In this document: positions 11,699 to 38,007 of the stretch, piece after piece | How positions within the stretch are numbered: the stretch's first letter is position 1 | Layout of the letters: the number at the start of each line of letters is the position of its first letter | Assembly (NCBI GenBank): GCA_020444265.1 | Contig: JAHLLH010000004.1 | Location: 1 to 64,000 of the forward strand | Source: a bacterium | GTDB taxonomy: Bacteria > Electryoneota > Electryoneia > Electryoneales > Electryoneaceae | Length of the DNA: 64,000 bases | Direction of reading: 5' to 3' | The notes under the pieces: model-generated | What the model was told of the DNA's origin: nothing | Database searches by the model: none | What the model saw: only the letters and a program-made list of their open reading frames with translations | Position numbers and translations under genes: made by a program

Positions 11699-11974
11699 GC
11701 CAACCTCGAGGTTTCTGTTGAATCAATTATCAGAAATATAAGCTTCATCACTCGCAAGAACGCAACGGTTTTTCGTGATTGGGAGAACTTCTAGATGACT
11801 CGAGACCTATTAAATCTCTCCTGTATTCCGAAGCTCCGAGTTACCAAGTGCCTTGAGAGTGATTCGGAGCACGAGTTCAAACATACTTAGGCGCAGCTCT
11901 CCTCCATTAGGGAACAATATGCAAGCAACGATATATTCTTGAGAATCTGACCTTTGTACTTAGGAGGTATGAAT

Positions 11975-21305: not shown

Positions 21306-22649
21306 ATGAATCGGGGCGTGGTAAGGTCACCACTCCTACACAGCGAAGACTGGTGGGCAGTCTGGATAGGATTTGCGGTGTTGATTGCCGCAGCCTTCGG
21401 ACTGGTCCGTCAGGTCCCCAAGCTCCAGAAATGGACTACGTCTCCCCTGGATGCGTTTCAACATGGCGCATCGTTTTCGCCTGACCAGAGCATGATCGTT
21501 CCCGTGGTGTTGACGGGGGTTGTACTCGTCCTCCTCTTCGCCCTCGCCATCCGTTTCCTCGGGGATCGACCCTTGCGGTTCATGGCAGGGTTTGGGATTG
21601 TCTTCGTGCTCGCGGTGGTATCCTACCTGCTTTCAAGGCAGGTGCAAGTGAGGGCATATGGGCTCGAATACGCGGTCTGGGCCCTTGCATTCGGATTGTT
21701 GATTTCGAATACGGTGGGTGTACCGGAGTGGTTGAAGGCAGGTGCACGCAGCGAGTTGTACATCAAGACCGGGTTGGTTCTGCTGGGTGCGGAGATTCTC
21801 TTCACCCACATTCTGGACATCGGGGGGCCCGGCCTGTTTGTCGCCTGGTTTGTCACCCCGATTGTTATCCTGGTGATGTTTAATGTTGGGACGCGCCTGT
21901 TGAAGATTCCCAGCAAAGCGCTGATCATCACCATCGCAGCAGCGACATCGGTTTGCGGAGTGTCTGCGGCCATTGCAACCGCTGCTGCGGCGAAGGCGAA
22001 GAAGGAAGAGTTGACCCTCGCGGTTGGCTTGTCGCTCATTTTCACCGTCCTGATGATGATCTTCATGCCTTGGGGCATTCGCGCGATGGGCATGGATGTG
22101 CATGTCGGGGCGGCTTGGATCGGCGGAACCATTGACTCAACCGGAGCGGTGGTCGCCTCGGGTGCCTTCCTTGGCCCGGAGGCGGAGAAGATCGCGGCGG
22201 TTGTCAAGATGATCCAGAACGTGCTCATCGGTGTGGTCGCTTTTCTGGTTGCCGTCTACTGGTGCGCAAAGGTGGAGCGCGAGGGGGACGACAAGGAATG
22301 CAAGACCAGGCCTTCTTTGAAAGAAATCTGGATTCGTTTCCCGAAGTTCATTGTCGGGTTTGTTGTCGCCAGCGTAGTGTTTTCGTTTGTCCTGATGCCC
22401 CTGATGGGCAGCGAAGCGGTGGAAATTGGAATCTTGAAACATGTGAGTGTGCCGTTGCGCGGATGGCTCTTCTGCATGGCCTTTGTGTCAATTGGTCTTG
22501 AGTCAAATTTCCGTGAGATGGCCGCCCAGATGTCCGGCGGTAAACCCTTTATTCTGTATGTCGTCGGGCAATCGTTTAACGTTCTGCTGACTCTGCTGGC
22601 CGCTTGGCTGGCCTTTGGCGGCATCCTGTTTGACAGGTTGGTGCTGTGA
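21306..22649 (+). CDS. YeiH/UPF0324 family putative sulfate exporter
   Basis: 447 residues with about 11-12 membrane spans. UPF0324 motifs are visible: EYAVWALAFGLLISN, YIKTGLVLLGAEILF, SVCGVSAAIATAAAAKAKKEELT and WIGGTIDSTGAVVASGAFLG. Members are annotated as putative sulfate/sulfonate-product exporters; transport direction is unproven. Position just upstream of dsrA, with a shared type of promoter palindrome, suggests movement of a sulfur oxyanion tied to DsrAB. The N-terminus carries about 80 extra residues including two spans. The stop overlaps the next gene. Confidence 0.85.
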   Translation: MNRGVVRSPLLHSEDWWAVWIGFAVLIAAAFGLVRQVPKLQKWTTSPLDAFQHGASFSPDQSMIVPVVLTGVVLVLLFALAIRFLGDRPLRFMAGFGIVFVLAVVSYLLSRQVQVRAYGLEYAVWALAFGLLISNTVGVPEWLKAGARSELYIKTGLVLLGAEILFTHILDIGGPGLFVAWFVTPIVILVMFNVGTRLLKIPSKALIITIAAATSVCGVSAAIATAAAAKAKKEELTLAVGLSLIFTVLMMIFMPWGIRAMGMDVHVGAAWIGGTIDSTGAVVASGAFLGPEAEKIAAVVKMIQNVLIGVVAFLVAVYWCAKVEREGDDKECKTRPSLKEIWIRFPKFIVGFVVASVVFSFVLMPLMGSEAVEIGILKHVSVPLRGWLFCMAFVSIGLESNFREMAAQMSGGKPFILYVVGQSFNVLLTLLAAWLAFGGILFDRLVL

Positions 22650-23059: not shown

Positions 23060-24262
23060 ATGCCAAAGGAGTACAAGACCCCCAAGCTTGACGAACTGGA
23101 GAAAGGCCCGTGGCCAAGTTTCGTCAAGGAAATCAAGTTGGCCGCCAAAAAGAGCGAGATGTCGAACGACTTGTTGGGCCAGCTGGAGCAGTCCTACAAC
23201 GAGAAACTTGGGCACTGGAAGCACGGCGGTATCGTTGGTGTCATGGGCTATGGTGGTGGTGTGATCGGCCGCTACAGCGACCTGCCGGATAAGTACCCGA
23301 GCGTGTCCCACTTCCACACGATTCGTGTCAACCAGCCGTCGGGTTGGTTCTACACCTCAGATGCGCTTCGCACGATCTGCGACATCTGGGAGAAGCATGG
23401 TTCCGGATTAACCAACATGCACGGCTCGACCGGCGACATGGTCTTTCTCGGTACCACCACGGATCACCTGGAACCGGTTTTCAAAGACCTGACCGAAGCG
23501 GGTTGGGACCTTGGTGGTTCTGGTTCGGATATGCGTACCCCGTCCTGCTGCGTCGGCCCCGGCCGCTGCGAATGGGCGTGCTACGATACCCTGCAGCGCT
23601 GCTATGACATCACCATGCGCTACCAGGATGAACTCCATCGTCCGGCATTCCCGTACAAGTGGAAATTCAAATTTGCCGGTTGCCCGAACGATTGCGTGGC
23701 GTCGATCGCTCGTGCGGACATCTCGGTGATCGGTACCTGGAAGGACGACATCCGTGTCGATGCCGACCAGGTCAAGACGTATGCGGATGAGGGCTTGGAC
23801 ATCTTCAACGATGTCGTGTTGAACTGCCCCGCCAAGTGCATGCGTTACGATGGCGAAAAGAAAGAAATCTCTATCGACAACAAGGATTGCCGTCGCTGCA
23901 TGCACTGCATCAATGTGATGCCAAAAGCGCTGCGTCCGGGTGTTGAACAGGGTGCAACCATCCTGATCGGTGCGAAAGCACCTATCGTGGAAGGTGCTCT
24001 GCTTTCCAGCGTACTGATTCCCTTCCTCGATATTGACGATGAGGAAGAGTTCGAAGCCTTCTGCGACCTGATCGAAGAGATGCAGGACGTTTGGTGTGAA
24101 GAAGGTAAGAACCGTGAACGTGTCGGTGAATTCATCCAGCGTGTCGGCATGGGCAACTTCCTCGAGGCCGTCGGTGTTGAGCCGATTCCCGAGATGGTGG
24201 CTTACCCCCGCGACAACCCGTATGTCTTCTACGAAGACTTTTACGAGGATGAAGATGAGTAG
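23060..24262 (+). CDS. dsrA: dissimilatory sulfite reductase, alpha subunit
   Basis: With DsrB it reduces sulfite (six electrons, sulfur loaded onto DsrC) in the cytoplasm. 400 residues; GGGAGGAG precedes the ATG. Siroheme-[4Fe-4S] ligand cysteines lie in CCVGPGRC (163-170) and GCPNDC (208-212). The inserted ferredoxin domain is NCPAKC (256-260) plus DCRRCMHC (277-283). The acidic C-terminus is typical. It is the first gene of a plus-strand group dsrABD-L-C-N. The adjacent dsrD supports the reductive type. Strong family identity throughout. Confidence 0.99.
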
Positions 24263-24322
24263 GCGCATCGGCCTTCTCAACCGTAAACAACAACGCAGAA
24301 CGTTTGGATAAGGAGTAGGAAA

Positions 24323-25411
24323 ATGGCTGATGCAGCCCCTCAGCGGATTACCGATATCGGCCCGCCAGATTTTCAGCAGTTCCTTCCGCCCGTGGTGAAA
24401 GCGAACTACGGCAAGTGGAAATACCATGAAATCGTCGAACCGGGCGTGATGGTCCATGTGGCCGAATCCGGCGATGAACTTTATACGATCCGTGCCGGTT
24501 CACCGCGTCTGCTGGCGATAGATACGATTCGTTTCTATGCCGACCTGGCGGACAAGTATTGCGACGGTCATCTCCGTTTCACCAGCCGTCACAACGTGGA
24601 ATTTTTGACGACGAAGAAAGAAAACGTCGCGAAAATCCGTGCAGAAATTGAAGCGAACGGCAACCCTGTTGGTGGTATGGGTCGTTCCATTACTTCCATC
24701 GTCCACACCCAGGGCTGGGTGCACTGCCACAGTGCAGCGACCGATGCCTCCGGCGTGGTCAAGGCGGTGATGGATGAAGTGATCGACTACTTCAAGGAAG
24801 AAAAACTTCCCGCGAAGTGCCGTATCGCTCTCGCCTGCTGCCTCAACATGTGTGGTGCGGTCCACTGCTCGGATATCGCGATTCTCGGTATCCACCGCAA
24901 GCCGCCGCGCATCGATCATAAAAATCTCGACAAGATCTGCGAAATCCCGAACCTGTCGGCCTCCTGCCCGACCGCCGCGATCCGTCCGGCGACCGTCGAA
25001 GGCATGCCCTCCGTGGAAGTGATCGAAGAGCAGTGCATGTATTGTGCGAACTGCTTTACGGTCTGCCCTGCGATGCCAATTGCAGATCCGGAGAACGACG
25101 GTGTGTCGATCTGGGTCGGCGGCAAGGTGTCCAACGCACGTAGTGAACCGCAATTCTCGAAGCTGGCGATTCCGTTCATCCCGAACAATCCGCCGCGCTG
25201 GCCGGAAGTGACCGAAGCGATCGTCAAGATCATCGAGGTCTGGGCCGCCAACGCACGTCCCTACGAACGTATGGGCGAGTGGATTGAGCGGGTCGGTTGG
25301 CCACGCTTCTTCAAACTGACCGGTATTCCGTTCGAGAAGGAACACATCGACGACTTCAAGCATGCCGGTCTCAGCTTCAAACGCAGTGCTCACCTGACGC
25401 ACGAGGCGTAA
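24323..25411 (+). CDS. dsrB: dissimilatory sulfite reductase, beta subunit
   Basis: 362 residues, 60 bp after dsrA, with an AAGGAG ribosome site. The hallmark [17 protein letters not shown] (128-144) and [17 protein letters not shown] (171-187) supply ligands for the catalytic siroheme cluster. A ferredoxin-like [13 protein letters not shown] (238-250) holds another [4Fe-4S]. In this enzyme family the beta subunit carries the functional siroheme. Length and motifs are complete, so the complex should be active. Confidence 0.99.
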
Positions 25412-25422
25412 AGGAGTCTACC

Positions 25423-25674
25423 ATGGCGATGACAGTCGACCAGATCGCCGACGCGATGTACAAGGAAGTCGAAGAGGCGACCAATTTCGGCAAAAAGCTG
25501 AAACCGATGGACCTCACCAAGGCTATGCTCAAGGCCTATGAAGAGGAAGGTGTGGACAAGAAGATGTGCAAGAGCGCGATCAAGAATTTGGTCGACTCTG
25601 GCCGTCTTGTTTACACCTATTTCGGTGGTTCGTACCTCGAACTCCCGCATCGTGAAGGTGCTGCGAACGACTGA
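25423..25674 (+). CDS. dsrD: DsrD, activator of DsrAB
   Basis: 83 residues starting MAMTVDQIADAMYKEVEE, 11 bp after dsrB. It has the winged-helix DsrD composition with a conserved TYFGGSYLELP end. DsrD is a known marker of reductive-type dsr loci and has been shown to increase DsrAB activity allosterically; it is absent from typical sulfur oxidisers. A long stem-loop follows at 25694-25730, which may protect the dsrABD part of the transcript. Confidence 0.95.
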   Translation: MAMTVDQIADAMYKEVEEATNFGKKLKPMDLTKAMLKAYEEEGVDKKMCKSAIKNLVDSGRLVYTYFGGSYLELPHREGAAND

Positions 25675-25693
25675 TTTGCTGGTTTCGATTCTT

Positions 25694-25730
25694 CTCCTCC
25701 TTCCGGCGTGATACGTGCCGGAAGGAGGAG
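25694..25730 (+). promoter_or_regulatory. long stem-loop after dsrD
   Basis: 14-bp perfect stem CTCCTCCTTCCGGC/GCCGGAAGGAGGAG with a 9-nt loop, 19 bp after the dsrD stop. There is no T run, so it is either a partial terminator or an mRNA-stabilising structure setting dsrABD expression above the downstream genes. Confidence 0.6.
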
Positions 25731-25853
25731 GATGTTGATTCCTGGATCGGTTGTTCCAAAATGTGGAAGCAGGTTAGGTATGCGGTTGGGACGGCACGGG
25801 GGGGCCGTCCAAGCTGCTAAGTTTGCTCCGGGCAGGGGGCATGTGAAAGGTGG

Positions 25854-27581
25854 ATGGAAATGCCGATACAACGGGCAGCGAAGAAAAAGAAACTGGGTGG
25901 ACGCGGTGCCCTCGGTGCAGGTCGCGGTGGTGGGTCGTCACGAGAATACTCGGACAAACGGCCTGTCCATGCAATGAAGCTGGCCCCGTGCATGTGCAAC
26001 TGCCCGCAGGGAACACCGGTCCGTGAGGCGATCAACACGATCAGCCTCCACGAAAAACATGGCCTGTCTCTTGACGAATCCTTTACCAAGGCATGGGAGA
26101 CATGGACCGAAATCAACCCCTTCCCGGCGATTCTTGGACGTGTTTGCCCTCACCCCTGTGAAGGCGACTGCAACCGGAAGACGAAAGACGGCGGGGTGTC
26201 GATTAACCAGATCGAGCGTTTCATCGGCGATTGGGGCTTGAAGCAGGAACTCAAGCTGAAGAAACTTGACGATGCTGAGGATTATTCGGAGAAGGTGGCT
26301 GTTGTCGGGTCCGGCCCTGCCGGTCTGAATGCGGCCTATCACCTCGCGAAACGTGGCTACAAAGTGACCATCTTCGAGGCCTTCTCCAAGGCGGGTGGTA
26401 TGCTGCGATACGGCATCCCGGATTATCGTCTCCCGCAGGAAATCCTCGACAAGGAAATTCAGCGTATCCTCGATCTTGGGGTTGAGCTGAAAACGGGGGT
26501 CACCGTCGGCAAGGACCAGGCCTTCTCCGATATCGAGAAAGAGTTTGATGCTGTCTTCGTTGGCATCGGAGCCCACAAAGGCCGTCTACTCGGCCTTGAA
26601 GGCGAAGAGGATGCAAACAATGTCTACACCGGTACCCAGTTCCTGAACATGGTCAACTCCGGCAACCCGCCGGATGTCGGCAAGAAGGTAGTGGTGGTCG
26701 GTGGTGGTGACTCGGCGATGGATGCAGCACGTGTCTGCCTGCGTCTCGGTGCCGAAGTGACCCTGTTGTATCGCCGTACGCGCAACGAGATGCCCGCGAT
26801 TGAAGAGGACATCGTCGGTGGTGAGGAAGAAGGCGTCAACTTTGTTTTCCTCGCGACTCCAGTCAGCCTGAATGTCGATGGCGACAAGTGCACCAGCATC
26901 AAGTGCCAGAAGATGGAACTCGGCGAACCAGATGATTCCGGACGTCGCCGTCCGGTGCCGATCGACGAGTTTTTCGAGTTGGACATCGACACGCTGATCC
27001 CCTCGATCAGCCAGGAACCCGAATTCGATGGGTTGGAAGAGCTGAAGGCCGGACCGAAGGATTGGGTCAAGGCAGACGAGTTCATGGAGCAGGATGAGGA
27101 GCACCACCACTTTGCTGGTGGCGATGCACTCAACCTCGGGACAGTGACCCTTGCGATGGCGCAGGGGAAACGTGCCGCTGCGACGATGCATGCCCGTTTC
27201 CGTGGTCTCACCGTCGAACATGAGAAAAAGCCGGAGCTGGTCGCGCCGGAAAAGATCCTGACCAACTACTTCGACCCGAAGCCACGCACGGAAGTCGAGG
27301 AAGAAGACGTTAAGGAGCGGGTCAAGAGCCTGGTGAAGGAAGTACACCGCACCTTTACCGAAGAAGAAGTGGTAGCAGAAGCAAGCCGCTGCCTGAGTTG
27401 CGGCATGTGCATCGAGTGCGGGCAGTGCTACAGCTACTGTCAGGACCAGGTGGTGGCGCGTCCAGTCAAACCGGGCGAACCCTTCACCTTTAATCTCGAC
27501 GCATGCAAAGGCTGCGAGAAGTGTGCTGAAGTCTGTCCATGCGGCTACATCGAAATGCGTCTGCCGGGACAGGCATCGTAA
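25854..27581 (+). CDS. dsrL: DsrL, iron-sulfur flavoprotein NAD(P)H oxidoreductase
   Basis: 575 residues related to the small subunit of glutamate synthase. The N-terminal cluster region has CMCNCPQG (46-53) and CPHPCEGDC (98-106). The FAD site is VVGSGPAGLNAA (150-161) and the pyridine nucleotide site is VVVVGGGDSAMDAA. It has a C-terminal ferredoxin domain with cysteine motifs at about 513-529 and 551-563, the feature separating DsrL from plain GltD. DsrL links NAD(P)H to DsrAB. Co-occurrence with DsrD points to the reductive (DsrL-2-like) form. The basic, Gly-rich first 30 residues are unusual. The ATG at 25860 is an alternative start. Confidence 0.93.
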   Translation: MEMPIQRAAKKKKLGGRGALGAGRGGGSSREYSDKRPVHAMKLAPCMCNCPQGTPVREAINTISLHEKHGLSLDESFTKAWETWTEINPFPAILGRVCPHPCEGDCNRKTKDGGVSINQIERFIGDWGLKQELKLKKLDDAEDYSEKVAVVGSGPAGLNAAYHLAKRGYKVTIFEAFSKAGGMLRYGIPDYRLPQEILDKEIQRILDLGVELKTGVTVGKDQAFSDIEKEFDAVFVGIGAHKGRLLGLEGEEDANNVYTGTQFLNMVNSGNPPDVGKKVVVVGGGDSAMDAARVCLRLGAEVTLLYRRTRNEMPAIEEDIVGGEEEGVNFVFLATPVSLNVDGDKCTSIKCQKMELGEPDDSGRRRPVPIDEFFELDIDTLIPSISQEPEFDGLEELKAGPKDWVKADEFMEQDEEHHHFAGGDALNLGTVTLAMAQGKRAAATMHARFRGLTVEHEKKPELVAPEKILTNYFDPKPRTEVEEEDVKERVKSLVKEVHRTFTEEEVVAEASRCLSCGMCIECGQCYSYCQDQVVARPVKPGEPFTFNLDACKGCEKCAEVCPCGYIEMRLPGQAS

Positions 27582-27652
27582 CAAGAGTAAACTAGAACCT
27601 CCCATACAGTTCACCTTGTGTGCCTTGGCACGCAAAGCATGAGGGTTGTACC

Positions 27653-27970
27653 ATGGCAAGCTTCGAGTACAACGGAAAAGCCGTCGATGTCGACGAGGAT
27701 GGTTTCATCGAGGATCCCAGTGTCTGGAACGAGGAACTCGCGAAGGCGCTGGCGGAGATCGAAGGTGTGACTGAGATGAGTGACGATCACTGGAAGATCG
27801 TCCACTATCTCCGTGACTACTACAAGCAGTTCGGGATTGCCCCGATGGTGCGGAAGCTCTGCAAGGAGACCGACACTCCCTTGAAGCGCATCTACGAACT
27901 CTACCCGTCGGGTCCGGCAAAGGGCGCCTGCAAGGTCGCCGGCCTGCCGAAACCGACTGGCTGCGTCTAA
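27653..27970 (+). CDS. dsrC: DsrC, sulfur-carrier protein
   Basis: 105 residues. It keeps both functional cysteines of the flexible arm: Cys93 (GACKVAG) and the penultimate Cys104 (TGCV), ten residues apart as in true DsrC rather than TusE. It accepts sulfur from DsrAB as a trisulfide and is reduced by DsrMKJOP. The start at 27653 (MASFEYNGKAV) follows GAGGGTTGTACC. It sits between dsrL and dsrN, so it is probably co-transcribed, although dsrC often also has its own promoter. Confidence 0.98.
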   Translation: MASFEYNGKAVDVDEDGFIEDPSVWNEELAKALAEIEGVTEMSDDHWKIVHYLRDYYKQFGIAPMVRKLCKETDTPLKRIYELYPSGPAKGACKVAGLPKPTGCV

Positions 27971-27988
27971 ACTGTAGACGATTTGCCG

Positions 27989-29380
27989 ATGAGTCGTTGC
28001 CCGGGAATCGTTGCAGCCGGCCTAAGCGGAGATAGCGGAAAAACGCTTGTCGCGCTTGGGCTGGCTGCTGCGTGGGCAAAACAGGGACGAACCGTTGCCC
28101 CGTTCAAAAAGGGGCCGGATTACATCGATGCCGCCTGGCTGACCCTTGCCGCATCTGCGCCCTGCCGTAACCTTGATAGCTACCTGATGGAGGAGGCAAC
28201 CATCCGGGCGAGCTGGGAGGGTGCGACGGCTGGGGCGGATATCGGAGTGATCGAGGGCAATCGTGGCCTGTTCGATGGGGTTGATGCCGAGGGCAGCCAC
28301 AGTACGGCGGCCCTCGCGAAGTTGCTGGACCTGCCCCTGCTGCTGGTGATCGATGCGACCAAGATGACTCGAACCACCGCAGCATTGGTATTGGGTGTGC
28401 AAACGCTCGATCCGGAGCTGCGTCTGGAAGGTGTCATCTTAAACCGGGTTGCCGGGAAACGGCATGCCCGGGTGGCGCGCGAAGCGATCGAATCGGTGAC
28501 TGGTGTGCCGGTTGTCGGGATTATCCCCAAGTTGACAAACCAGGGAATGATTCCAGGCCGTCACCTCGGGTTGGTAACGACCGACGAGCATCCGGAAGCG
28601 CGACAGGCAATTGCACGTGCAGCAGAGGTGGTGGAGGAGCATCTCGACCTTGAACGAATCTTCGAGATCGCCGGGGGGGGGAAGGATTGGAAACCGTCGG
28701 CGAGAATGGCCGCTCCAGCAAGGAAGAGGGTGAAACGGGAAGGGACTGTGCGCATCGGGGTGGTGCGTGATGCCGCCTTTCCTTTTTACTACCCGGAAAA
28801 CCTGGAGGCGCTCGAGGCACGAGGGGCCGAGGTGGTCCCGGTCAGCGCGCTGAATGGGGATGGTTTACCAGACGATTTGCATACGCTGTACATCGGGGGA
28901 GGCTTTCCAGAAACCCATGCGGAACAGCTCGCCGCGAATCGACCCTTTCTCGACGCGCTCCATCAGGCCGCACAGGACGGCTTGCCGATCTATGCTGAAT
29001 GTGGCGGGTTAATGCTGCTGACCGAAAGTATCGAGTACAAGGGCCGTACCTACCCGATGAGCAAGGTGCTGCTTGTGAAGATCGGCTGGTCGAAGAAGCC
29101 TTCGGGGCATGGTTACACACGGGGGCAGGTGACCCGGGACAATCCATTTTACCCGGTCGGCACAGATATATCAGGACATGAATTCCACCATTCCAGTTTG
29201 GAGGAGGGGCAGGATATCCCGGGGACGGTGGTTGAGTTGGAAAAAGGCACCGGGGTCGGCGGGGGACATGACGGGTTTGTAACGAACAACGTCCTCGCTC
29301 TTTATACGCATGTTCACGCGGCCGGTCTTCCTGCTTGGGCAGATGGGATGATCCGGGCGGCGAAGGGGTACAAGGGCTAG
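27989..29380 (+). CDS. dsrN: DsrN, cobyrinate a,c-diamide synthase-like siroheme amidase
   Basis: 463 residues, CbiA/CobB type. The P-loop-like AAGLSGDSGKT (about 9-19) begins the ATP-dependent half; GPDYIDAAW and VIEGNRGLFDG follow. The C-terminal glutaminase domain has the nucleophile in YAECGGLML and the His region GHEFHHSS. In dsr loci this protein amidates siroheme to the siroamide used by DsrAB. No other cobalamin genes are in the window, which supports DsrN over vitamin B12 synthesis. The ATG at 27989 is preferred to the TTG at 27983. Confidence 0.9.
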   Translation: MSRCPGIVAAGLSGDSGKTLVALGLAAAWAKQGRTVAPFKKGPDYIDAAWLTLAASAPCRNLDSYLMEEATIRASWEGATAGADIGVIEGNRGLFDGVDAEGSHSTAALAKLLDLPLLLVIDATKMTRTTAALVLGVQTLDPELRLEGVILNRVAGKRHARVAREAIESVTGVPVVGIIPKLTNQGMIPGRHLGLVTTDEHPEARQAIARAAEVVEEHLDLERIFEIAGGGKDWKPSARMAAPARKRVKREGTVRIGVVRDAAFPFYYPENLEALEARGAEVVPVSALNGDGLPDDLHTLYIGGGFPETHAEQLAANRPFLDALHQAAQDGLPIYAECGGLMLLTESIEYKGRTYPMSKVLLVKIGWSKKPSGHGYTRGQVTRDNPFYPVGTDISGHEFHHSSLEEGQDIPGTVVELEKGTGVGGGHDGFVTNNVLALYTHVHAAGLPAWADGMIRAAKGYKG

Positions 29381-29397
29381 TCTGAGCAGAGTGTTTT

Positions 29398-29418
29398 GTG
29401 TCGCTGCGGTCCTCGCAA
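29398..29418. repeat. remnant of a CATTGCGAGG-type MITE
   Basis: TGTCGCTGCG is joined directly to GTCCTCGCAACG. These equal the two outer ends of the element at 30654-30779, so this looks like an internally deleted copy in the 83-bp gap before the TPR gene. Confidence 0.4.
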
Positions 29419-29463
29419 CGGCACGTTTGAAAGAAGTTTGGTTGGGGGGAGAAGGGAGCAGCA

Positions 29464-30000
29464 GTGGCGATCAAGATGCCGTCGGCTGAGCAGACGGCGA
29501 AAGCAAGGCGAAAACTCGAGCAGGAGAAGCAGGAGGAAGCGCTGCATCGCCTGCAAGAGCAAGTTGAATCGGGCCAGGGTGATGCCCTGGTCCACTACCA
29601 GCTTGGTGTCGCCTACCTCTCCCTCGAGCAGCCGATCGAAGCGATCAAAGCGCTGAAAAAGTCGATCGAACTCGACGAACGATTCATCCATGCATGGGTC
29701 AACCTCGCCATCGTTCATCACCAGATGGGCGAATTTGATAAATCGGTCGAGATGAACCGTCGCGCGCTCGACATTGCACCCGGTTTTGTCCCGGCACGAG
29801 TTAACCTGGGGTTGGCGCTGAACGCTTTGGGTCGCTACACATCTTCGATTGAAGAGTTGACACGAGTGTTACAGCTCGAGCCAAAAATGCCTCAGGCGCT
29901 GGCGGGCCTCTACGAAGCCCATCTTGCGCTGAAACATGCAGATGAGGCACAACGTTTCCGGAAGCTCGCCGAAGAGGCGGGCGTGAGGTTTGTGGAGTAA
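29464..30000 (+). CDS. TPR protein in dsr cluster
   Basis: 178 residues from GTG with a GGGGGGAGAAGGGAG leader. A charged helix (about 8-32) is followed by at least three tetratricopeptide repeats: ALVHYQLGVAYLSLEQ, AWVNLAIVHHQMGEF and ARVNLGLALNALGRY. There is no signal peptide, so it is cytoplasmic. It lies between dsrN and the dsrM-side genes on the same strand, suggesting a scaffold or assembly role for Dsr proteins, which is inference. Confidence 0.85.
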   Translation: MAIKMPSAEQTAKARRKLEQEKQEEALHRLQEQVESGQGDALVHYQLGVAYLSLEQPIEAIKALKKSIELDERFIHAWVNLAIVHHQMGEFDKSVEMNRRALDIAPGFVPARVNLGLALNALGRYTSSIEELTRVLQLEPKMPQALAGLYEAHLALKHADEAQRFRKLAEEAGVRFVE

Positions 30001-30034
30001 GGCTCAAGCGTGGTGTTGTCGTTGTGTAGTCCGT

Positions 30035-30120
30035 TGTGTCAGACGTCTACGTCTGACACATGATCGCGCCATCGGCGCGAAGAACCGTCAGGTCTTCGCT
30101 TCGCTACGGACCTGACGGAA
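30035..30120. repeat. modular three-hairpin element, dsr copy 1
   Basis: Stem 1 is TGTGTCAGAC/GTCTGACACA (30035-30060), stem 2 is TCGCGCC-ATC-GGCGCGA (30064-30080) and stem 3 is CCGTCAGGTC/GACCTGACGG (30085-30118). Same plan as 30804-30890 and the core of 6185-6383, but stem 1 has a different compensated sequence. It fills the gap between the TPR and RsbRD_N genes. Confidence 0.75.
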
Positions 30121-30166
30121 TAAAGAACACGCACAGTTGGCAGGGAATCTGCCACAGGGGGGATGT

Positions 30167-30640
30167 GTGAACGATCTGGCCCAACGGCGAGATGAGCTGG
30201 TCGCGCTCTGGTTCGAACGGGTGATGGCATCCTACCCGTCCCAGGCCGCCATGCTGCTGACCAAACAGACCGATCCATTCGCCAATCCGGTTGGCGCTTC
30301 CTTCCGACGAGACCTCGCCATTCTGTTTGACCATTTCACAGGCATTACGGACGAGGAGGGCTTTGATCGTGCCCTCGACAATGTCTGCCGGATACGTTCC
30401 GTGCAGGATTTTGCACCGTCGCAGGCAGTCGGTTTTGTTCTCGATCTGAAACAGGTTCTCCGTGACCAGGGTTGTTGGATAGATGCGTATGAACCGCAGG
30501 TAGATCGTCTGCTGCTCAAGGCATTTGATGTCTACCAGCAATGCCGCGAGGACCTGGCAACTGTACGTGTCAACGAGGCCCATCGGAGAACCGACAACCT
30601 GTTGCGCCAGCTGAATCGACGGGATGAGGTGGGGACATAG
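30167..30640 (+). CDS. RsbRD N-terminal-domain protein
   Basis: 157 residues from the GTG at 30167 (AGGGGGGA upstream). A single helical domain with RRDELVALWFERVMASYP, FANPVG and a middle FDHFTG segment matches the RsbRD_N family (PF14361), first defined at the N-terminus of RsbR-type stressosome proteins. No STAS domain follows. Stand-alone members are often seen beside dsrMKJOP in sulfate reducers (from memory), so a sensor or assembly function for the membrane complex is plausible. Confidence 0.8.
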   Translation: MNDLAQRRDELVALWFERVMASYPSQAAMLLTKQTDPFANPVGASFRRDLAILFDHFTGITDEEGFDRALDNVCRIRSVQDFAPSQAVGFVLDLKQVLRDQGCWIDAYEPQVDRLLLKAFDVYQQCREDLATVRVNEAHRRTDNLLRQLNRRDEVGT

Positions 30641-30653
30641 AGGATAAATGTGT

Positions 30654-30779
30654 GTCGCTGCGAGGAACGTAGTGACGAAGCAGTCTCGAACCATTTTCCG
30701 TGTTGGCTACGCGCTTTGCGCGCAGGGAGTCGAGCTGAGTGATCTGAGGTTGCTTCGTCCCTTCGGTCCTCGCAATGAC
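30654..30779. repeat. MITE-like CATTGCGAGG element in dsr cluster
   Basis: Imperfect terminal inverted repeats: GTCGCTGCGAGGAACG...GACGAAGCA at the left and TGCTTCGTC...CCTCGCAATGAC at the right, with an internal CGCGCTTTGCGCG palindrome. No coding capacity. It lies between the RsbRD_N gene and dsrM. Confidence 0.65.
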
Positions 30780-30803
30780 GCATTGTAAACGTTGTGTAGT
30801 TGT

Positions 30804-30890
30804 TGTGTCAGGTCCTTAGACCTGACACATGTATCGCGCCTGGGGCGCGAATATCCGTCAGGTCTCCGCTTCGCTATGGAGCTGACGGAA
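30804..30890. repeat. modular three-hairpin element, dsr copy 2
   Basis: Stem 1 TGTGTCAGGTC/GACCTGACACA (30804-30829), stem 2 TCGCGCC-TGG-GGCGCGA (30834-30850) and stem 3 CCGTCAG...CTGACGG (30856-30888). Near-copy of 30035-30120. Located 25 bp beyond the MITE and about 100 bp before dsrM. Confidence 0.75.
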
Positions 30891-30988
30891 CAACACATGG
30901 AACTGAACGAATCACGTTCCAAGCAGCACTCAACATCGAGCAACAAGATCAAGTAGAGATAAAGAACCCCAGCTAGGAGGAGAACCGC

Positions 30989-31978
30989 ATGAGCACCTGG
31001 TCTTCCCTGATCGCGATTGTGCTTTTAATCACAATTGCCATCGTGGGGGTGCAGGTGGCTGGATTGCAGATGGTCTTCGGGGTGGTGATCCCTTACATCG
31101 CCATTGCCCTGTTCCTGATCGGCGTCGTCTACCGGGTCATCCGTTGGGCAATGTCGCCGGTCCCCTTCCGCATTCCGACCACCAGCGGTCAGGCACGATC
31201 GCTGCCCTGGATAAAAAACAACTCTCTCGAAAGCCCGCACAACGGCTTCACCACCTTCCTGCGCATGCTGCTGGAAGTGCTACTCTTCCGTTCCCTCTTC
31301 AGAAATACGAAGACGGATCTGAAAGAGGGGAGGCTGTTGTATGGCTCGAACAAGTGGCTCTGGCTGGGAGGCATAGTCTTTCATTATTCCTTCCTGGTCA
31401 TTTTCCTGCGTCACTTCAAATATTTTGCTGAGCCAACTCCGGCTTTTGTGACCGCGCTACAAAGTGTCGATGGTTTCTTCCAGATTGGCCTGCCGATCCT
31501 CTACATCACCGATATGCTTTTCCTCGCGGCGGTCAGCTTCCTCTTCATCCGCCGTGTTTGGAGTCCGCAACTGCGGTACCTCTCGCTGGCATCGGACTAC
31601 TTCCCACTCTTCCTGCTGTTGGCCATCGGCTGCACTGGTGTGCTGATGCGCTACTTCACGAAGGTGGACATTGTCGCGGTCAAGGAGCTTGGCACCGGGT
31701 TGTTATCCTTCCACCCGGTGGTGCCGGAGGTCGGGGTGATGTTCTACATCCACCTTTTCCTCGTCTCCAGCCTGATCGCTTACTTCCCGTTCAGCAAGCT
31801 GATGCACATGGCGGGCATTTTTCTCAGCCCGACACGCAATTTGGCGAACAACAATCGTACGAAACGGCACGTTAACCCGTGGGACTACCCGGTTCACGTT
31901 CACACCTATGCGGAGTATGAGGATGAATTCCGTCCGGTGATGAAAGCAGCGGGGCTTCCCCTGGACAAGGAGGAGTAA
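30989..31978 (+). CDS. dsrM: DsrM, membrane cytochrome b subunit
   Basis: 329 residues with five to six membrane helices and a NarI-like domain. AGGAGGAG precedes the ATG. Membrane histidines available for two b haems include FHYSFLVIFLRHFKYF and YIHLFLVSS. It exchanges electrons with menaquinol and passes them to DsrK. A soluble segment between spans 2 and 3 (about 60-105) is usual for DsrM. First gene of dsrMKJOP; 2 bp before dsrK. Confidence 0.95.
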   Translation: MSTWSSLIAIVLLITIAIVGVQVAGLQMVFGVVIPYIAIALFLIGVVYRVIRWAMSPVPFRIPTTSGQARSLPWIKNNSLESPHNGFTTFLRMLLEVLLFRSLFRNTKTDLKEGRLLYGSNKWLWLGGIVFHYSFLVIFLRHFKYFAEPTPAFVTALQSVDGFFQIGLPILYITDMLFLAAVSFLFIRRVWSPQLRYLSLASDYFPLFLLLAIGCTGVLMRYFTKVDIVAVKELGTGLLSFHPVVPEVGVMFYIHLFLVSSLIAYFPFSKLMHMAGIFLSPTRNLANNNRTKRHVNPWDYPVHVHTYAEYEDEFRPVMKAAGLPLDKEE

Positions 31979-31980
31979 TC

Positions 31981-33648
31981 ATGGCCGTGAAATACAAACC
32001 GGACCAGCTCCTCCAGGTCGATTACAAGCCGCCAAAGAAAAGCTGGCTTGATCCAAAGATCGATTTCGGGGAGAAGAAGGGAAACTGGAACTACGGTGCT
32101 GTGCCCGATGCCGTAACCCATCTCGAGCTTCCCAATGCTCGCAAATGGCAGCCGAGCGATGAGGACTGGCAGCTTCCTGAGAATTGGAAAGAGATCATCT
32201 TTGAGGGGCTACGTCAGAGGTTGGACCGTTTCCGCTCTCTGCGGCTGTTCATGGACGTCTGCGTCCGTTGTGGTGCCTGCGCGGACAAGTGCCATTATTT
32301 CCTCGGATCGGGCGATCCGAAGAACATGCCAGTGATGCGTGCCGAACTGCTTCGCTCGGTCTACCGACGTGATTTCACTCTTGCCGGGAAATTGATGGGC
32401 AAGATGATGGGTGCGCGTGAGCTGACAGTCGATGTGCTCAAGGAGTGGTTTTACTACTTCTTCCAGTGCACCGAATGTCGCAGGTGTTCCGTTTTCTGCC
32501 CCTACGGCATCGACACCGCTGAAATCACCATGATCGGCAGGGAGCTGCTCGCGCTTGTCGGGTTGAACATCGACTGGATTCTGACCCCTGCGTCCAATTG
32601 CTTCCGCACCGGTAACCACCTCGGCATCCAGCCGCATGGTGTGGTGGACAGCCTGGAATTTGCGGCGGACGAACTGGAGGATATTACCGGTATCAAGGTG
32701 GATCTGCCGATAAACAGGAAGGGCGCAGAAGTGCTGTTTATCGCGCCCTCGGCGGACTACTTCGCCAGCCCGCATTACTACACCCTGCTCGGCTACATGG
32801 CGCTATTCCACGAGATCGGCCTCGACTACACCTGGTCGACCTTCGCCTCCGAAGGCGGCAATTTCGGCCTCTTCCATAGCCATGAGATGATGAAACGTCT
32901 CAACGCGAAGATGTACATGGAAGCGGAACGGCTGAAGGTAAAATGGATCCTCGGCGGCGAGTGTGGCCACATGTGGCGTGTGATTCATCAGTACATGGGC
33001 ACCATGAACAGTCCAGCTGATTTCCTCGAGGTGCCAAAGTCGCCGGTTACCGGGACGGTCTTTGAGCACGCGAAATCGACCAAGATGGTCCACATTTGCG
33101 AGTTCACCGCTGACCTGATCAAGAACGATAAGATCAAGCTCGATCCGAGCCGTAACGATCACTGGAAGGTGACCTTCCACGATTCCTGCAACCCGGCCAG
33201 GGCTATGGGACTGATCGAGGAACCGCGTTACGTGATCAACGCCGTTTCGAACCATTTCCACGAGATGCCCGAGAATACGATCAAGGAACAGACCTTCTGC
33301 TGCGGTAGCGGGGCCGGACTGGGGACGGACGAGAACTTCGAGATGCGGATGCGCGGTGGTTTGCCACGTGCCAACGCAGTGAAGTTTGTCAATGAGCGGC
33401 ACGGAGTTGATCATCTGCTCTGCATTTGCGCAATTGATAAGGCGACGCTGCCGCCGTTACTCGAGTTCTGGGTGCCGGGAGTGGAAGTGGCCGGGATCCA
33501 CGAGATGGTCGGGAATGCCCTGATCATGAAGGGCGAGAAGGAACGCGAGACAGACCTGCGTGGCGAACCCCTCGCCAATCTGCCGATCCCGGAAACGGAC
33601 GAGGCTGCGCCGGACGAGAAACCCGTGGAGGAAGCCGACCATGTATGA
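31981..33648 (+). CDS. dsrK: DsrK, HdrD-like iron-sulfur catalytic subunit
   Basis: 555 residues. Two [4Fe-4S] motifs: CVRCGACADKC (94-104) and CTECRRCSVFC (163-173). C-terminal CCG-type motifs for the noncubane disulfide-reducing cluster are HDSCNPARAMG and TFCCGSGAG. Related to heterodisulfide reductase subunit D. It is thought to reduce the DsrC trisulfide on the cytoplasmic side using electrons from DsrM. The last 8 bp overlap the dsrJ start. Complete. Confidence 0.97.
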   Translation: MAVKYKPDQLLQVDYKPPKKSWLDPKIDFGEKKGNWNYGAVPDAVTHLELPNARKWQPSDEDWQLPENWKEIIFEGLRQRLDRFRSLRLFMDVCVRCGACADKCHYFLGSGDPKNMPVMRAELLRSVYRRDFTLAGKLMGKMMGARELTVDVLKEWFYYFFQCTECRRCSVFCPYGIDTAEITMIGRELLALVGLNIDWILTPASNCFRTGNHLGIQPHGVVDSLEFAADELEDITGIKVDLPINRKGAEVLFIAPSADYFASPHYYTLLGYMALFHEIGLDYTWSTFASEGGNFGLFHSHEMMKRLNAKMYMEAERLKVKWILGGECGHMWRVIHQYMGTMNSPADFLEVPKSPVTGTVFEHAKSTKMVHICEFTADLIKNDKIKLDPSRNDHWKVTFHDSCNPARAMGLIEEPRYVINAVSNHFHEMPENTIKEQTFCCGSGAGLGTDENFEMRMRGGLPRANAVKFVNERHGVDHLLCICAIDKATLPPLLEFWVPGVEVAGIHEMVGNALIMKGEKERETDLRGEPLANLPIPETDEAAPDEKPVEEADHV

Positions 33649-34069
33649 TGCCGGAAAAATTGTGACCGGGCTGCTGATCTTCCTCCTGCTGATCACCTTC
33701 CCGGTTTGGTACAACGCTGCGATGGGCAAAGCGCAGACACGGCCCAATCCGGTCGTACAGACCGCCGATGAGCCGGGGCGCGACACCTGTGTCCTCGAGG
33801 GTGATGAGATGGTTACCGCACACATGAACCTGCTCGATGAGTGGCGGGATACGGTGGTGCGGGATGGTGTCCGAATGACCGAAACCTTCAACGGCCACAG
33901 GATCGAGATGAGCCTGAGTCGTACTTGCATGGACTGCCACAGCAACAAGGAACAGTTCTGCGACGAGTGCCACACCTACATGGATGTCGAACCCTACTGC
34001 TGGGAATGCCATGTGGAACCGCGTCAGGCACCCGAAGCGGCACCGGAGATGGAAGGGGGTGAGCAATGA
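33641..34069 (+). CDS. dsrJ: DsrJ, triheme periplasmic cytochrome c
   Basis: 142 residues. An N-terminal uncleaved anchor (about 5-24) precedes three CxxCH haem sites: CMDCH (96-100), CDECH (107-111) and CWECH (120-124). The extra Cys50 (DTCVLEGDEM) corresponds to the unusual His/Cys haem ligand known in DsrJ. Overlaps dsrK by 8 bp and dsrO by 4 bp, so translation is coupled. Confidence 0.96.
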   Translation: MYDAGKIVTGLLIFLLLITFPVWYNAAMGKAQTRPNPVVQTADEPGRDTCVLEGDEMVTAHMNLLDEWRDTVVRDGVRMTETFNGHRIEMSLSRTCMDCHSNKEQFCDECHTYMDVEPYCWECHVEPRQAPEAAPEMEGGEQ

Positions 34070-34863
34070 GTGTTGACCGCAGGCAGTTTGTCCGTCTCGC
34101 GGGCACTGCGGCACTCGGACTCGCCGCCGCACCCGCTGCGAAACTGATCGCCAGCCAGGAAGAAACAGCCTCGTCTGAGGTAATGCACGAGGCGAGCCTG
34201 CCAACTGGCGAGCCGAAGACCGCGGAACGTTGGGCGATGGTGATTGACCTGAAAAAGTGCGCCGGGCATGAGGGCTGTACGAAATGCATCGACGCATGCC
34301 ATGACTCACACAATGTGCCGGACTTCGGCAACGACAAAGATGAGATCAAGTGGCTGTGGAAGGAATCATTCGGGCATGCCTTTCACGAGCAGGATCTGGA
34401 CTATGTCAGCGATGAGTTGAAACATCGTCCGACCCTGATGCTCTGCAACCACTGCGACAATCCCGCCTGTGTCCGTGTCTGCCCGACCGGGGCGACCTGG
34501 AAACGGGAGGATGGGATTGTGATGATGGATTGGCACCGTTGCATCGGCTGCCGCTACTGCGTGGTGGCCTGTCCCTACGGCAGCCGCTCGTTCAACTACC
34601 GCGATCCACGACCCTTCATCGATGAAATCAATGAGGAGTTCCCGACACGGATGCGTGGTGTGGTCGAGAAGTGCACCTTCTGCGAGGAGTTGCTGGCGAA
34701 AGGTCAGATGCCGAAGTGTGTGGATGCCTGCGAAGCGGGCGCGTTGGTCTTTGGCGATCTTGAGGATCCGAACAGCAATGTCAGCCAGCTGTTGCACGAG
34801 CAGTTTGCGATCCGTCGTAAACCAGCCCTCGGCACACAGCCGGAGGTGTACTACCTCGTGTAA
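34066..34863 (+). CDS. dsrO: DsrO, Tat-exported ferredoxin-like subunit
   Basis: 265 residues. Tat signal DRRQFVRLAG at the N-terminus, then an Ala-rich stretch. Four cysteine groups for four [4Fe-4S] clusters, as in PsrB/DmsB-type proteins: CAGHEGCTKCIDAC, CNHCDNPACVRVC, CIGCRYCVVAC and CTFCEE...CVDAC. It faces the periplasm and pairs with DsrP. A 100-bp gap with a repeat hairpin separates it from dsrP, unlike the overlaps earlier in the set. Confidence 0.96.
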   Translation: MSVDRRQFVRLAGTAALGLAAAPAAKLIASQEETASSEVMHEASLPTGEPKTAERWAMVIDLKKCAGHEGCTKCIDACHDSHNVPDFGNDKDEIKWLWKESFGHAFHEQDLDYVSDELKHRPTLMLCNHCDNPACVRVCPTGATWKREDGIVMMDWHRCIGCRYCVVACPYGSRSFNYRDPRPFIDEINEEFPTRMRGVVEKCTFCEELLAKGQMPKCVDACEAGALVFGDLEDPNSNVSQLLHEQFAIRRKPALGTQPEVYYLV

Positions 34864-34868
34864 ATCCG

Positions 34869-34923
34869 TTCGGTCAGGTCTTCTGACCTGACCGACTATC
34901 CGCCAAATCGGGTGACTTGGCGG
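34869..34923 (+). repeat. two-hairpin repeat between dsrO and dsrP
   Basis: CGGTCAGGTC-TTCT-GACCTGACCG (34871-34894) and CCGCCAA/TTGGCGG (34100+ offset removed: arms at about 34900-34906 and 34917-34923). The first stem has exactly the same arms as 49138-49161. It interrupts the dsrMKJOP transcript 8 bp after the dsrO stop and 40 bp before dsrP. Confidence 0.75.
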
Positions 34924-34963
34924 AACATAGGTGCCAACCCTCATCCATCGTTGGAGAGTGGCC

Positions 34964-36139
34964 ATGATTGAGAATGCATTACGCGGCGATAAACGTTACT
35001 GGACCTGGGTATCAGCCCTCGGCGCAGTGGTGCTGGTCGGGGTCTACTTCTGGTTCCGTCAGTTCCATCTGGGCTTGACCATTACTGGCTTGTCACGAGA
35101 CGTGGTCTGGGGATTCTACATCGCCCAGTTTACCTTCCTCGTTGGTGTGGCAGCATCTGCCGTCATGGTGGTCCTGCCCTACTACCTGCACAATTACAAG
35201 CAATTCGGCAAGCTGACAATCCTTGGGGAATTCCTCGCGATTGCGGCCGTCATCATGTGTATGGCATTCATTTTTGTCGACATGGGGCAGCCCTTCCGTA
35301 TCGGGAATGTCTTTTTACATCCTTCGCCAAACAGCATGATGTTCTGGGATACGGTATCCGTTTTCGGTTACCTCTTTCTGAACATCATCATCAGCCGGGT
35401 GACCTTCCGTGCTGAGAAAAAAGGGGTCAAGCCACCGAATTGGATCCGGCCGATCATCATTCTGTCGATCCCCTGGGCGATTTCAATCCATACCGTGACC
35501 GCCTTCCTCTATTCCGGTCTGGCGGGACGGCCTTTCTGGCTATCCGCAGTGATGGCACCTCGATTCCTTGCGACCGCCTTTTCCGCGGGTCCGGCATTGC
35601 TGGTGCTGATCATGCTGGTGCTGAGAAAAATATCGAGTTTTGATGCGGGCAAAGAGCCGATCCGTAAGCTGGCGATCATCATCATGTACGCGATGGCATT
35701 GAATGTCTTCTTCCTGCTGATGGAGATATTCACCGCCTCCTACAGTGGCATGCCGGAACATATCGACCACTTCAAGTTCCTCTACTTCGGTCTCGACGGG
35801 TATACGACGATGGTGCCGTGGATGTGGGGGTCCGCGATCCTCGCGGTCTTCTCGCTCATCCTCCTGTTTAATCCGAAGACACGGAACAACGAGACGTTCC
35901 TCGCGTGGGCCTGTGTTGCGGTGTTTGCCAGCATTTGGATTGACAAGGGTCTCGGCATGGTGGTGACCGGCTTTACCCCGAACCCCTTCGGGACCGTCAC
36001 CCCCTACAGCCCAACCTTCCCGGAAGTGATGATTTCGCTGGCGATTTACGCCATCGGTGCCCTGATTGTCACCTTCCTTTACAAGGTTGCGCTTTCGGTC
36101 CGTGCACGGATGGGCCAGGGGTACGAGGCTGCGCATTAG
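34964..36139 (+). CDS. dsrP: DsrP, NrfD-like quinone-interacting membrane subunit
   Basis: 391 residues with about ten membrane helices. The start at MIENALRGDK follows GGAGAGTGGCC. It belongs to the NrfD/PsrC family, which exchanges electrons with the quinone pool without haem. It should accept electrons from or give electrons to DsrO/DsrJ. Last gene of dsrMKJOP; hairpins at 36165-36190 and 36258-36288 follow. Confidence 0.95.
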   Translation: MIENALRGDKRYWTWVSALGAVVLVGVYFWFRQFHLGLTITGLSRDVVWGFYIAQFTFLVGVAASAVMVVLPYYLHNYKQFGKLTILGEFLAIAAVIMCMAFIFVDMGQPFRIGNVFLHPSPNSMMFWDTVSVFGYLFLNIIISRVTFRAEKKGVKPPNWIRPIIILSIPWAISIHTVTAFLYSGLAGRPFWLSAVMAPRFLATAFSAGPALLVLIMLVLRKISSFDAGKEPIRKLAIIIMYAMALNVFFLLMEIFTASYSGMPEHIDHFKFLYFGLDGYTTMVPWMWGSAILAVFSLILLFNPKTRNNETFLAWACVAVFASIWIDKGLGMVVTGFTPNPFGTVTPYSPTFPEVMISLAIYAIGALIVTFLYKVALSVRARMGQGYEAAH

Positions 36140-36288: not shown

Positions 36289-36339
36289 ATTCGCTATATT
36301 TCAACTATTCAAAACCTTTTTGCGTTGATGGGGGCAACG

Positions 36340-38007
36340 ATGAGCGATGGTAATCGGGTGGTGGTGATCGGTGGTGATGCGGCTGGGTTAAAGGCCGCTG
36401 CACGGTTGAAACGTATCTGCCCCGAGACGACAATCACGGTGTTTGAACGATCCGAGACCATTTCCTATGCCGCCTGCGGGTTGCCCTATTACCTCTCCGG
36501 GGACATTGACAGCCTGGATGATCTCCTGACCACCGCCTGGGGAGAGAAGAAGACCCCCGACTATTTCCTCTCTTCAAAAGACATCGAGGTGAAAACGGGG
36601 CACCAGGTCATCGGTATCTACCCGGAGAAAAAGCAGGTCGAGGTACGACGGACCGGGGCGGATAGTTCACGAGCTGTTGCCTACGATTCCTTGATCATCG
36701 CGACGGGCGCTTCCCCCATCATGCTGGATTTGCCAGGCTGCTCAGGAGATGGAGTCTGCTGCTTCACACGCCCTAGCGATGCCGTCAATCTTCGTCAGTC
36801 ACTCGAGCGCAATGAGATCGGCCGTGTGCTGGTCGTCGGTGCGGGCTACATCGGGCTGGAGTTGTGCGAAGCCTTCGGCGCCTTGTGGGGCGTGGAGGTG
36901 GTCCTGGTGGAGCGCGAGAATCAGGTCCTCGCCCCCAACCTCGATCCTGAACTGGCGCGGCTGGTGCAGAACCATCTCGAGGATCAGGGAGTCACCATGC
37001 GCCTCGGGGCACGGCTGGAACGAGTCAAGCACAACGAGAACCAGCTTGTCGCGGTGCTGGATGATGGATCGGAAGAGCCAGTAGACCGAGTGATTGTATG
37101 TGTCGGGGTACGTCCCAACGCTCGCCTCGCTTTCGAGGCAGGGCTGACCCTCGGCTATCACGGCGGCATCCTTATAAATGAGCAGGGACAAACCAGCGAT
37201 CCAAGTATCTATGCTGCCGGCGATTGTGCCGAATTGCCGGATGGGCAGGGAACCCGTCTGCTGCCGCTCGGGTCAATCGCCAACCGGATGGGTCGAGTCG
37301 TTGCCAATTCGATTGCAGGTATCGCCGGGCCCGGCCTGGCTCCCCCGAACGGGGCCGGGATTGTCAAGGTATTCGACCTGACGGTCGGCTCTATCGGCAC
37401 AAGCGCCAACCGTGCGGTATTGGGTGGTAATTCGGTCGAGGAGTATTGGGGCACCTTCTCGGCCAATGCCCACTACTACCCGGAAAGCACGGATGTTTTT
37501 ATGAAATTGATCCGTGCTGCCGATGGTCGATTGCTGGGATTGCAAGTCGTCGGACAGGGCGATGTGACACGATGGGTGAATGGATTCGGTCAGATCCTGG
37601 ACCTCACGGAGGGGAATACGGAAGCGCTCACCCGCTACGAGCACGCCTACGCGCCACCCTATGCGACAGCGCTGGATCCCTTCCACCATTTCGCAGGGAT
37701 GATCGAAGCCGGGGCGGACTTACAGTATAGTCCGGAAGCATGGGAGGAGCTTGCCGTCGATCCGTCCATCACCTGGATCAACCTGCTCGACGATTCCGAA
37801 CGATCCTCGGTCACCTTGCCAAGCTTTGCTGGCACGGTGCATGATTGGACTCTTGGCGAGGTGCGAAAATCTTTAGCGACGCTACCGAAGAATAAGGTGA
37901 TCGTATTCTGTGCCAAGGGTCCACGATCCTACGAGGCCGCTCTCTTCCTGCGGCAGCAAGGTATAAATGCTCGCTACATGGCGGGTGGGGTGTTGATGCT
38001 TGGGTGA
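36340..38007 (+). CDS. CoA-disulfide/persulfide reductase-like flavoprotein with rhodanese domain
   Basis: 555 residues from the ATG at 36340 (GGGGG upstream). N-terminal FAD motif VVVIGGDAAGLKAAARL; the redox cysteine is in ISYAACGLPYYLSG (about residue 43 from the start); a second Rossmann motif is VLVVGAGYIGLELCE. The C-terminal 100 residues are a rhodanese domain with the active loop VIVFCAKGPRSYEAA. This two-domain plan is that of NADH-dependent persulfide reductase (Npsr) and CoADR-RHD, which release sulfide from CoA persulfide or polysulfide. It lies directly after dsrP behind a terminator, so it is likely its own unit serving zero-valent sulfur metabolism. Confidence 0.88.
   Translation: MSDGNRVVVIGGDAAGLKAAARLKRICPETTITVFERSETISYAACGLPYYLSGDIDSLDDLLTTAWGEKKTPDYFLSSKDIEVKTGHQVIGIYPEKKQVEVRRTGADSSRAVAYDSLIIATGASPIMLDLPGCSGDGVCCFTRPSDAVNLRQSLERNEIGRVLVVGAGYIGLELCEAFGALWGVEVVLVERENQVLAPNLDPELARLVQNHLEDQGVTMRLGARLERVKHNENQLVAVLDDGSEEPVDRVIVCVGVRPNARLAFEAGLTLGYHGGILINEQGQTSDPSIYAAGDCAELPDGQGTRLLPLGSIANRMGRVVANSIAGIAGPGLAPPNGAGIVKVFDLTVGSIGTSANRAVLGGNSVEEYWGTFSANAHYYPESTDVFMKLIRAADGRLLGLQVVGQGDVTRWVNGFGQILDLTEGNTEALTRYEHAYAPPYATALDPFHHFAGMIEAGADLQYSPEAWEELAVDPSITWINLLDDSERSSVTLPSFAGTVHDWTLGEVRKSLATLPKNKVIVFCAKGPRSYEAALFLRQQGINARYMAGGVLMLG

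Follow-up and report, generated by a model that had tools for sequence, protein, structure and literature searches.

Dissimilatory sulfite reductase (dsr) operons and a complete sulfate-reduction pathway have been described in the Electryoneota (AABM5-125-24), a lineage of the FCB group (PMC10439189; PMC10580873), and AABM5-125-24 was listed in 2023 with a full dsr set that includes dsrD and dsrL-2 (PMC10591310). A YRR motif is the signature of DsrL-2 and is lacking from DsrL-1. The DsrL-2 of Desulfurella is active with NADPH only, and some oxidizers also carry DsrL-2 (PMC7596348).

The window analysed here is a stretch of 64,000 nucleotides from a further member of this phylum. An intact set of dsr genes, with a reductive-type dsrA and a dsrL encoding the YRR motif, lies on one of its strands. 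We conclude that this locus is very probably an operon for sulfite reduction in a sulfate-reducing member of the Electryoneota, with predicted activity, direction and cofactor use.

Gene content of the dsr locus

Positions 23060–36139 of the plus strand encode, in this order, dsrA, dsrB, a dsrD-like gene, dsrL, dsrC, dsrN, a TPR gene, an RsbRD_N gene and dsrMKJOP, all intact (Table 1). Most junctions within the cluster are short or overlapping; dsrK and dsrJ share 8 bases, and dsrJ and dsrO share 4. The first-pass annotation had described a complete dsr locus on one strand with its key motifs intact, and both the family models and the residue checks agree. Its gene list held the main dsr genes but omitted the RsbRD_N and TPR genes.

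Table 1. Features of the dsr region of the window and sulfate-reduction genes on contig C11. Paired values are bits/cut-off of NCBIfam equivalog models.
Feature	Position	Strand	Evidence
YeiH-type (Cons_hypoth698) membrane protein, 5' of dsrA	21306..22649	+	Pfam PF03601 1.3e-50
dsrA, dissimilatory sulfite reductase alpha, reductive bacterial type	23060..24262	+	TIGR02064 579/393 bits, alignment, tree
dsrB, dissimilatory sulfite reductase beta	24323..25411	+	TIGR02066 503/342 bits, alignment
dsrD-like, 83 aa winged helix, dsrD position	25423..25674	+	conservation, AF2 pLDDT 86
dsrL, type DsrL-2 (YRR), predicted NAD(P)H:acceptor oxidoreductase	25854..27581	+	NF009410 573 bits, alignment
dsrC, both C-terminal cysteines	27653..27970	+	TIGR03342 119 bits, sequence
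dsrN, CbiA-type sirohaem amidase	27983..29380	+	NF002204 436 bits
TPR-repeat gene of operon	29464..30000	+	Pfam TPR
RsbRD_N-domain gene 5' of dsrM, DsrT-like by position	30137..30640	+	PF14361 9.7e-16
dsrM	30989..31978	+	NF038037 521/300 bits
dsrK	31981..33648	+	NF045796 731/400 bits
dsrJ, three CxxCH haem sites	33641..34069	+	NF038038 156/100 bits
dsrO	34066..34863	+	NF045797 307/200 bits
dsrP, NrfD family	34964..36139	+	PF03916 2.4e-38, synteny
FAD pyridine-nucleotide-disulfide oxidoreductase, NSR/CoA-disulfide reductase type	36325..38007	+	PF07992 2.9e-66
hemA, glutamyl-tRNA reductase	39865..41211	+	PF05201 1.1e-42
sat	C11:202519-203157		family model
aprA	C11:203915-205759		family model
aprB	C11, adjoins aprA		position and sequence
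qmoA, qmoB	C11, upstream		position and sequence
qmoC	C11:245234-246313, ~40 kb away		family model

DsrC and the CbiA-type DsrN also scored above their own NCBIfam cut-offs, and the NCBIfam match of DsrL was to a GltD-like NAD(P)-binding flavoprotein family. DsrA has kept the cysteines C164-x5-C170...C208-x3-C212 and C277/280/283, and DsrB those at C135, C172, C173, C177 and C238/241/244/248; in the alignment, the ligands of the iron-sulfur clusters and of sirohaem in DsrAB are intact. The same is true of the haem sites of DsrJ, the C-terminal C-x10-C of DsrC and both [4Fe-4S] motifs of DsrK, while the C-terminus of DsrL holds eight ferredoxin-type cysteines.

The order of the dsr genes is kept across the family loci compared, in the phylum and beyond. 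A TPR gene occupies the same site in five of six other family loci and is also found in Thermoanaerobaculia-type loci. The RsbRD_N gene adjoins dsrM in most loci compared, and the name DsrT would apply to it by the position given in PMC10504309. Downstream of dsrP, the NSR-type gene, whose product has a rhodanese-like tail as judged by eye, is syntenic in eight relatives, including other Electryoneota families; an NSR gene within the dsr operon has been described (PMC10439189). Several relatives likewise carry hemA close to the dsr cluster. The YeiH-type gene lies near dsr in three more family genomes, where it is divergent. Further upstream in the window, positions 11954-14284 encode a large predicted secreted protein with a YPNPFNPST-type sorting tail at its end.

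Directly 3' of dsrB, the locus encodes a small winged-helix protein. Published surveys reportedly name the gene after dsrB dsrD, as did the first-pass annotation. Position, size and the modelled winged-helix fold speak for that name, but the protein matched neither Pfam DsrD nor the solved D. vulgaris DsrD (1ucr) significantly. The cut-off of the Pfam DsrD model (PF08679) was reached in none of the 39 phylum genomes. The model gave 15 weak matches in the phylum, two of which fell exactly on the DsrD-like gene, in two genomes, and favour a distant kinship with DsrD; the best match of a DsrD-like member had an E-value of 0.0033. No solved DsrD structure was among the matches listed for the DsrD-like protein, and hhalign against a D. 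vulgaris DsrD sequence identical to 1ucr was not significant. Among the matches listed, hmmsearch, Pfam, hhalign and fold comparison returned the general winged-helix class alone. The gene is kept in phylum relatives and in most named relatives. Across the whole clade, which spans several phyla, the protein is conserved, stays below the curated Pfam DsrD cut-off and does not significantly match solved DsrD. We label the gene dsrD-like on the basis of position, size and winged-helix fold, with activation of DsrAB as its putative role.

The YRR motif of DsrL is located at the nucleotide site (Y306-R307-R308) and was present in all 70 DsrL proteins compared in the alignment. Because of this motif, we assign DsrL to type DsrL-2 and regard it as NADPH-linked; NADPH-driven sulfite reduction would be the best reading, one that draws on a single characterized DsrL-2. 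The pairing with reductive DsrAB would place the protein in subcluster DsrL-2C. An NADH link, which the first-pass annotation had suggested, was rejected, as YRR at the nucleotide-binding site points to NADPH instead. The same annotation had taken the pairing of dsrL with dsrD as telling; relatives belonging to many phyla have it too, and dsrD-like and dsrL genes were seen together in most named relatives. The start of DsrL (25854-25960) is lysine-rich and then glycine/serine-rich, and 38 of the 70 DsrL proteins contain KKK among their first 40 residues.

Host and relatives of DsrAB

The host genome (4.33 Mb in 19 contigs, 94% complete) belongs to the Electryoneota and shares its family with Candidatus Electryonea clarkiae, bearing out the expectation of an FCB-group host outside the classical sulfate-reducing phyla. 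For comparison within the phylum we used 39 genomes, including Ca. Electryonea clarkiae, Ca. Tariuqbacter arcticus and candidate division LCP-89. The dsrB gene was present in 20 of these, and in all seven family genomes examined.

DsrAB is of the reductive bacterial type, as indicated by its split from rDsrA and by the equivalog scores. In a DsrA tree that included few canonical references, the window clustered with its own family, away from Desulfovibrio-type DsrA, and a long branch with 100% support divided it from eight rDsrA sequences. The oxidative references were the rDsrA of phage Lau218 and its IMG/VR relatives; a DsrB search for such references gave no match in viral contigs and nothing useful in plasmids, and a DsrA alignment search of viral contigs gave no match. 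The DsrA tree and the YRR motif indicate that the locus has neither the rDsrAB nor the DsrL-1 of oxidative rDsr systems. In a DsrAB tree built with a quick method, the seven family members formed one clade with 100% SH-aLRT support, while the three groups of the phylum did not unite and backbone support was moderate.

DsrAB sequences from the families of the phylum fall into more than one clade, so older dsr transfers among phyla are possible. This speaks for a different origin of the locus, in which its dsr genes were recently acquired from Desulfobacterota or entered the bin as contamination. Such an origin is extremely improbable. In a ranking of DsrB relatives across 84,980 species genomes, the best 80 were headed by Ca. 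Electryonea clarkiae and also included other Electryoneota, Zixibacteria, Kapabacteria, Acidobacteriota, Gemmatimonadota, Planctomycetota and others, and no classical Desulfobacterota were among these 80; on this ranking, recent transfer from Desulfobacterota was rejected. Carriage of dsrB throughout the family argues against both recent acquisition and contamination, as does the position of the locus on a 350 kb contig on which a large neighbouring gene ends in the FCB-type YPNPFNPST tail. The first-pass annotation had named grouping with oxidative DsrAB or recent transfer from Desulfobacterota as outcomes that would overturn its reductive assignment; the DsrA and DsrAB trees and the DsrB ranking gave neither.

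Remaining sulfate-reduction genes and direction of the pathway

The first-pass annotation had listed sat, aprAB and qmoABC as genes to look for elsewhere in the genome, and all were found on contig C11, where qmoA, qmoB, sat, aprB and aprA are consecutive. Because sat, aprBA and qmoABC are also present, the genome, as judged from its genes, encodes full sulfate reduction. Sat and AprBA, fed by QmoABC, would convert sulfate to sulfite. With the DsrD-like protein as activator and electrons arriving from NADPH via DsrL-2, DsrAB would then reduce sulfite to a DsrC-bound trisulfide, which DsrMKJOP would reduce with quinol-derived electrons, releasing sulfide. DsrN would amidate the sirohaem. For the last reductive step, both an intact dsrMKJOP and a DsrC with two C-terminal cysteines are encoded. 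The NADPH could come from a sulfhydrogenase-like [NiFe] hydrogenase on contig C18, which is predicted to be NAD(P)-linked and has its own gamma subunit; uptake-type and Hox-like [NiFe] hydrogenases are also encoded.

A second sat, fused to ApsK (C13:123726-124370) and perhaps assimilatory, adjoins a probable DASS-type transporter. An octaheme cytochrome of the tetrathionate-reductase family is encoded at C12:51.9-53.6 kb. It is accompanied by a cytochrome b and by two YeeE/YedE stretches, of which one has a rhodanese-like tail. The first-pass annotation had also listed phsA and soe genes; no molybdopterin oxidoreductase (PF00384) was found in the assembly, which therefore lacks phsA, psrA and soeA. 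The genome has caa3-type and cbb3-type oxygen-reducing haem-copper oxidases, and a third gene of the COX1 family probably encodes a quinol NO reductase (qNOR).

The reductive type of DsrAB, the presence of a DsrD-like gene and the failure to find a dsrEFH cluster all favour reduction. The genome has two isolated DsrE-family matches, one above and one below the cut-off, and no tusA-dsrEFH was found beside the yeeE/yedE genes; dsrEFH of type II diverges too far for such a search and could have escaped it. The operon might instead run mainly or also in reverse, with sulfide oxidized via DsrC, DsrMKJOP, DsrAB-L, AprBA-Qmo and Sat, oxygen as the acceptor and NADP+ reduced by DsrL-2. We consider this unlikely. 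In its favour, the genome encodes two oxygen reductases, and reductive gene sets are able to run in reverse, as reductive-type DsrAB does in cable bacteria and Desulfurivibrio (PMC13293266; PMC6018796); DsrL-2 also occurs in some oxidizers, as noted above. Besides the DsrD-like gene and the failure to find a dsrEFH cluster, reversal is opposed by the placement of lineages with the same gene set in the reductive group (PMC11406059) and by an acidobacterium with a similar set, which uses sulfate and oxygen in turn (PMC10564751). It is similarly doubtful that the host is a facultative aerobe using one operon both ways, for NADPH-driven sulfite reduction under anoxic conditions and for oxygen-coupled sulfide oxidation without DsrEFH. 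The flexible direction raised by the first-pass annotation thus gains little specific support: the two haem-copper oxidases would allow it, but no dsrEFH cluster was found. Sulfite reduction is the direction we predict for the operon.

Relation to described dsr systems

The gene set has already been published for Electryoneota and is common in about ten other phyla. To these records the present analysis adds a 19-contig Electryoneota genome with a full sulfate-reduction set. The co-occurrence of dsrD and dsrL-2 is the rule in the clade, so the pair alone is no sign of NADH use or reversibility. Points of note in the group are the poor match of its 'dsrD' to the curated family and the presence of oxidases without a molybdopterin enzyme.

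The oxidative rDsr systems of Allochromatium and SUP05 have in common with the locus that DsrL is the NAD(P)H partner of DsrAB. They differ in their DsrL-1, which lacks YRR (PMC7596348), and in dsrEFH, which is essential there and was not found in the window genome; phage-borne rDsrA is 39% identical to the DsrA of the window. Within the phylum, Ca. Tariuqbacter arcticus resembles the window in its dsrABDNLC genes and NSR gene (PMC10439189). It has no standard dsrJOP and carries b6f-type genes instead (PMC10439189), whereas dsrMKJOP of the window is canonical. In the Ca. Tariuqbacter dsr locus we saw divergent dsrM and dsrK pieces and no standard dsrJOP, consistent with that report.

Zixibacteria, Kapabacteria, Acidobacteriota and others with DsrD and DsrL-2 share the gene set and the YRR motif, and their DsrB is about 68–77% identical to that of the window. 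Unlike in the window, dsrN in these operons is often 5' of dsrL or absent. Ca. Electryonea clarkiae and other Electryoneota have the same order, dsrABDLCN-TPR-RsbRD-MKJOP (PMC10439189; PMC10591310). Ca. Electryonea clarkiae belongs to the same family, with identities of 85% for DsrA, 80% for DsrB and 80% for DsrK. The window comes from another genus and differs from Ca. Electryonea clarkiae in having hemA and the NSR-type gene 3' of dsrP, an arrangement that it shares with other families of the phylum.
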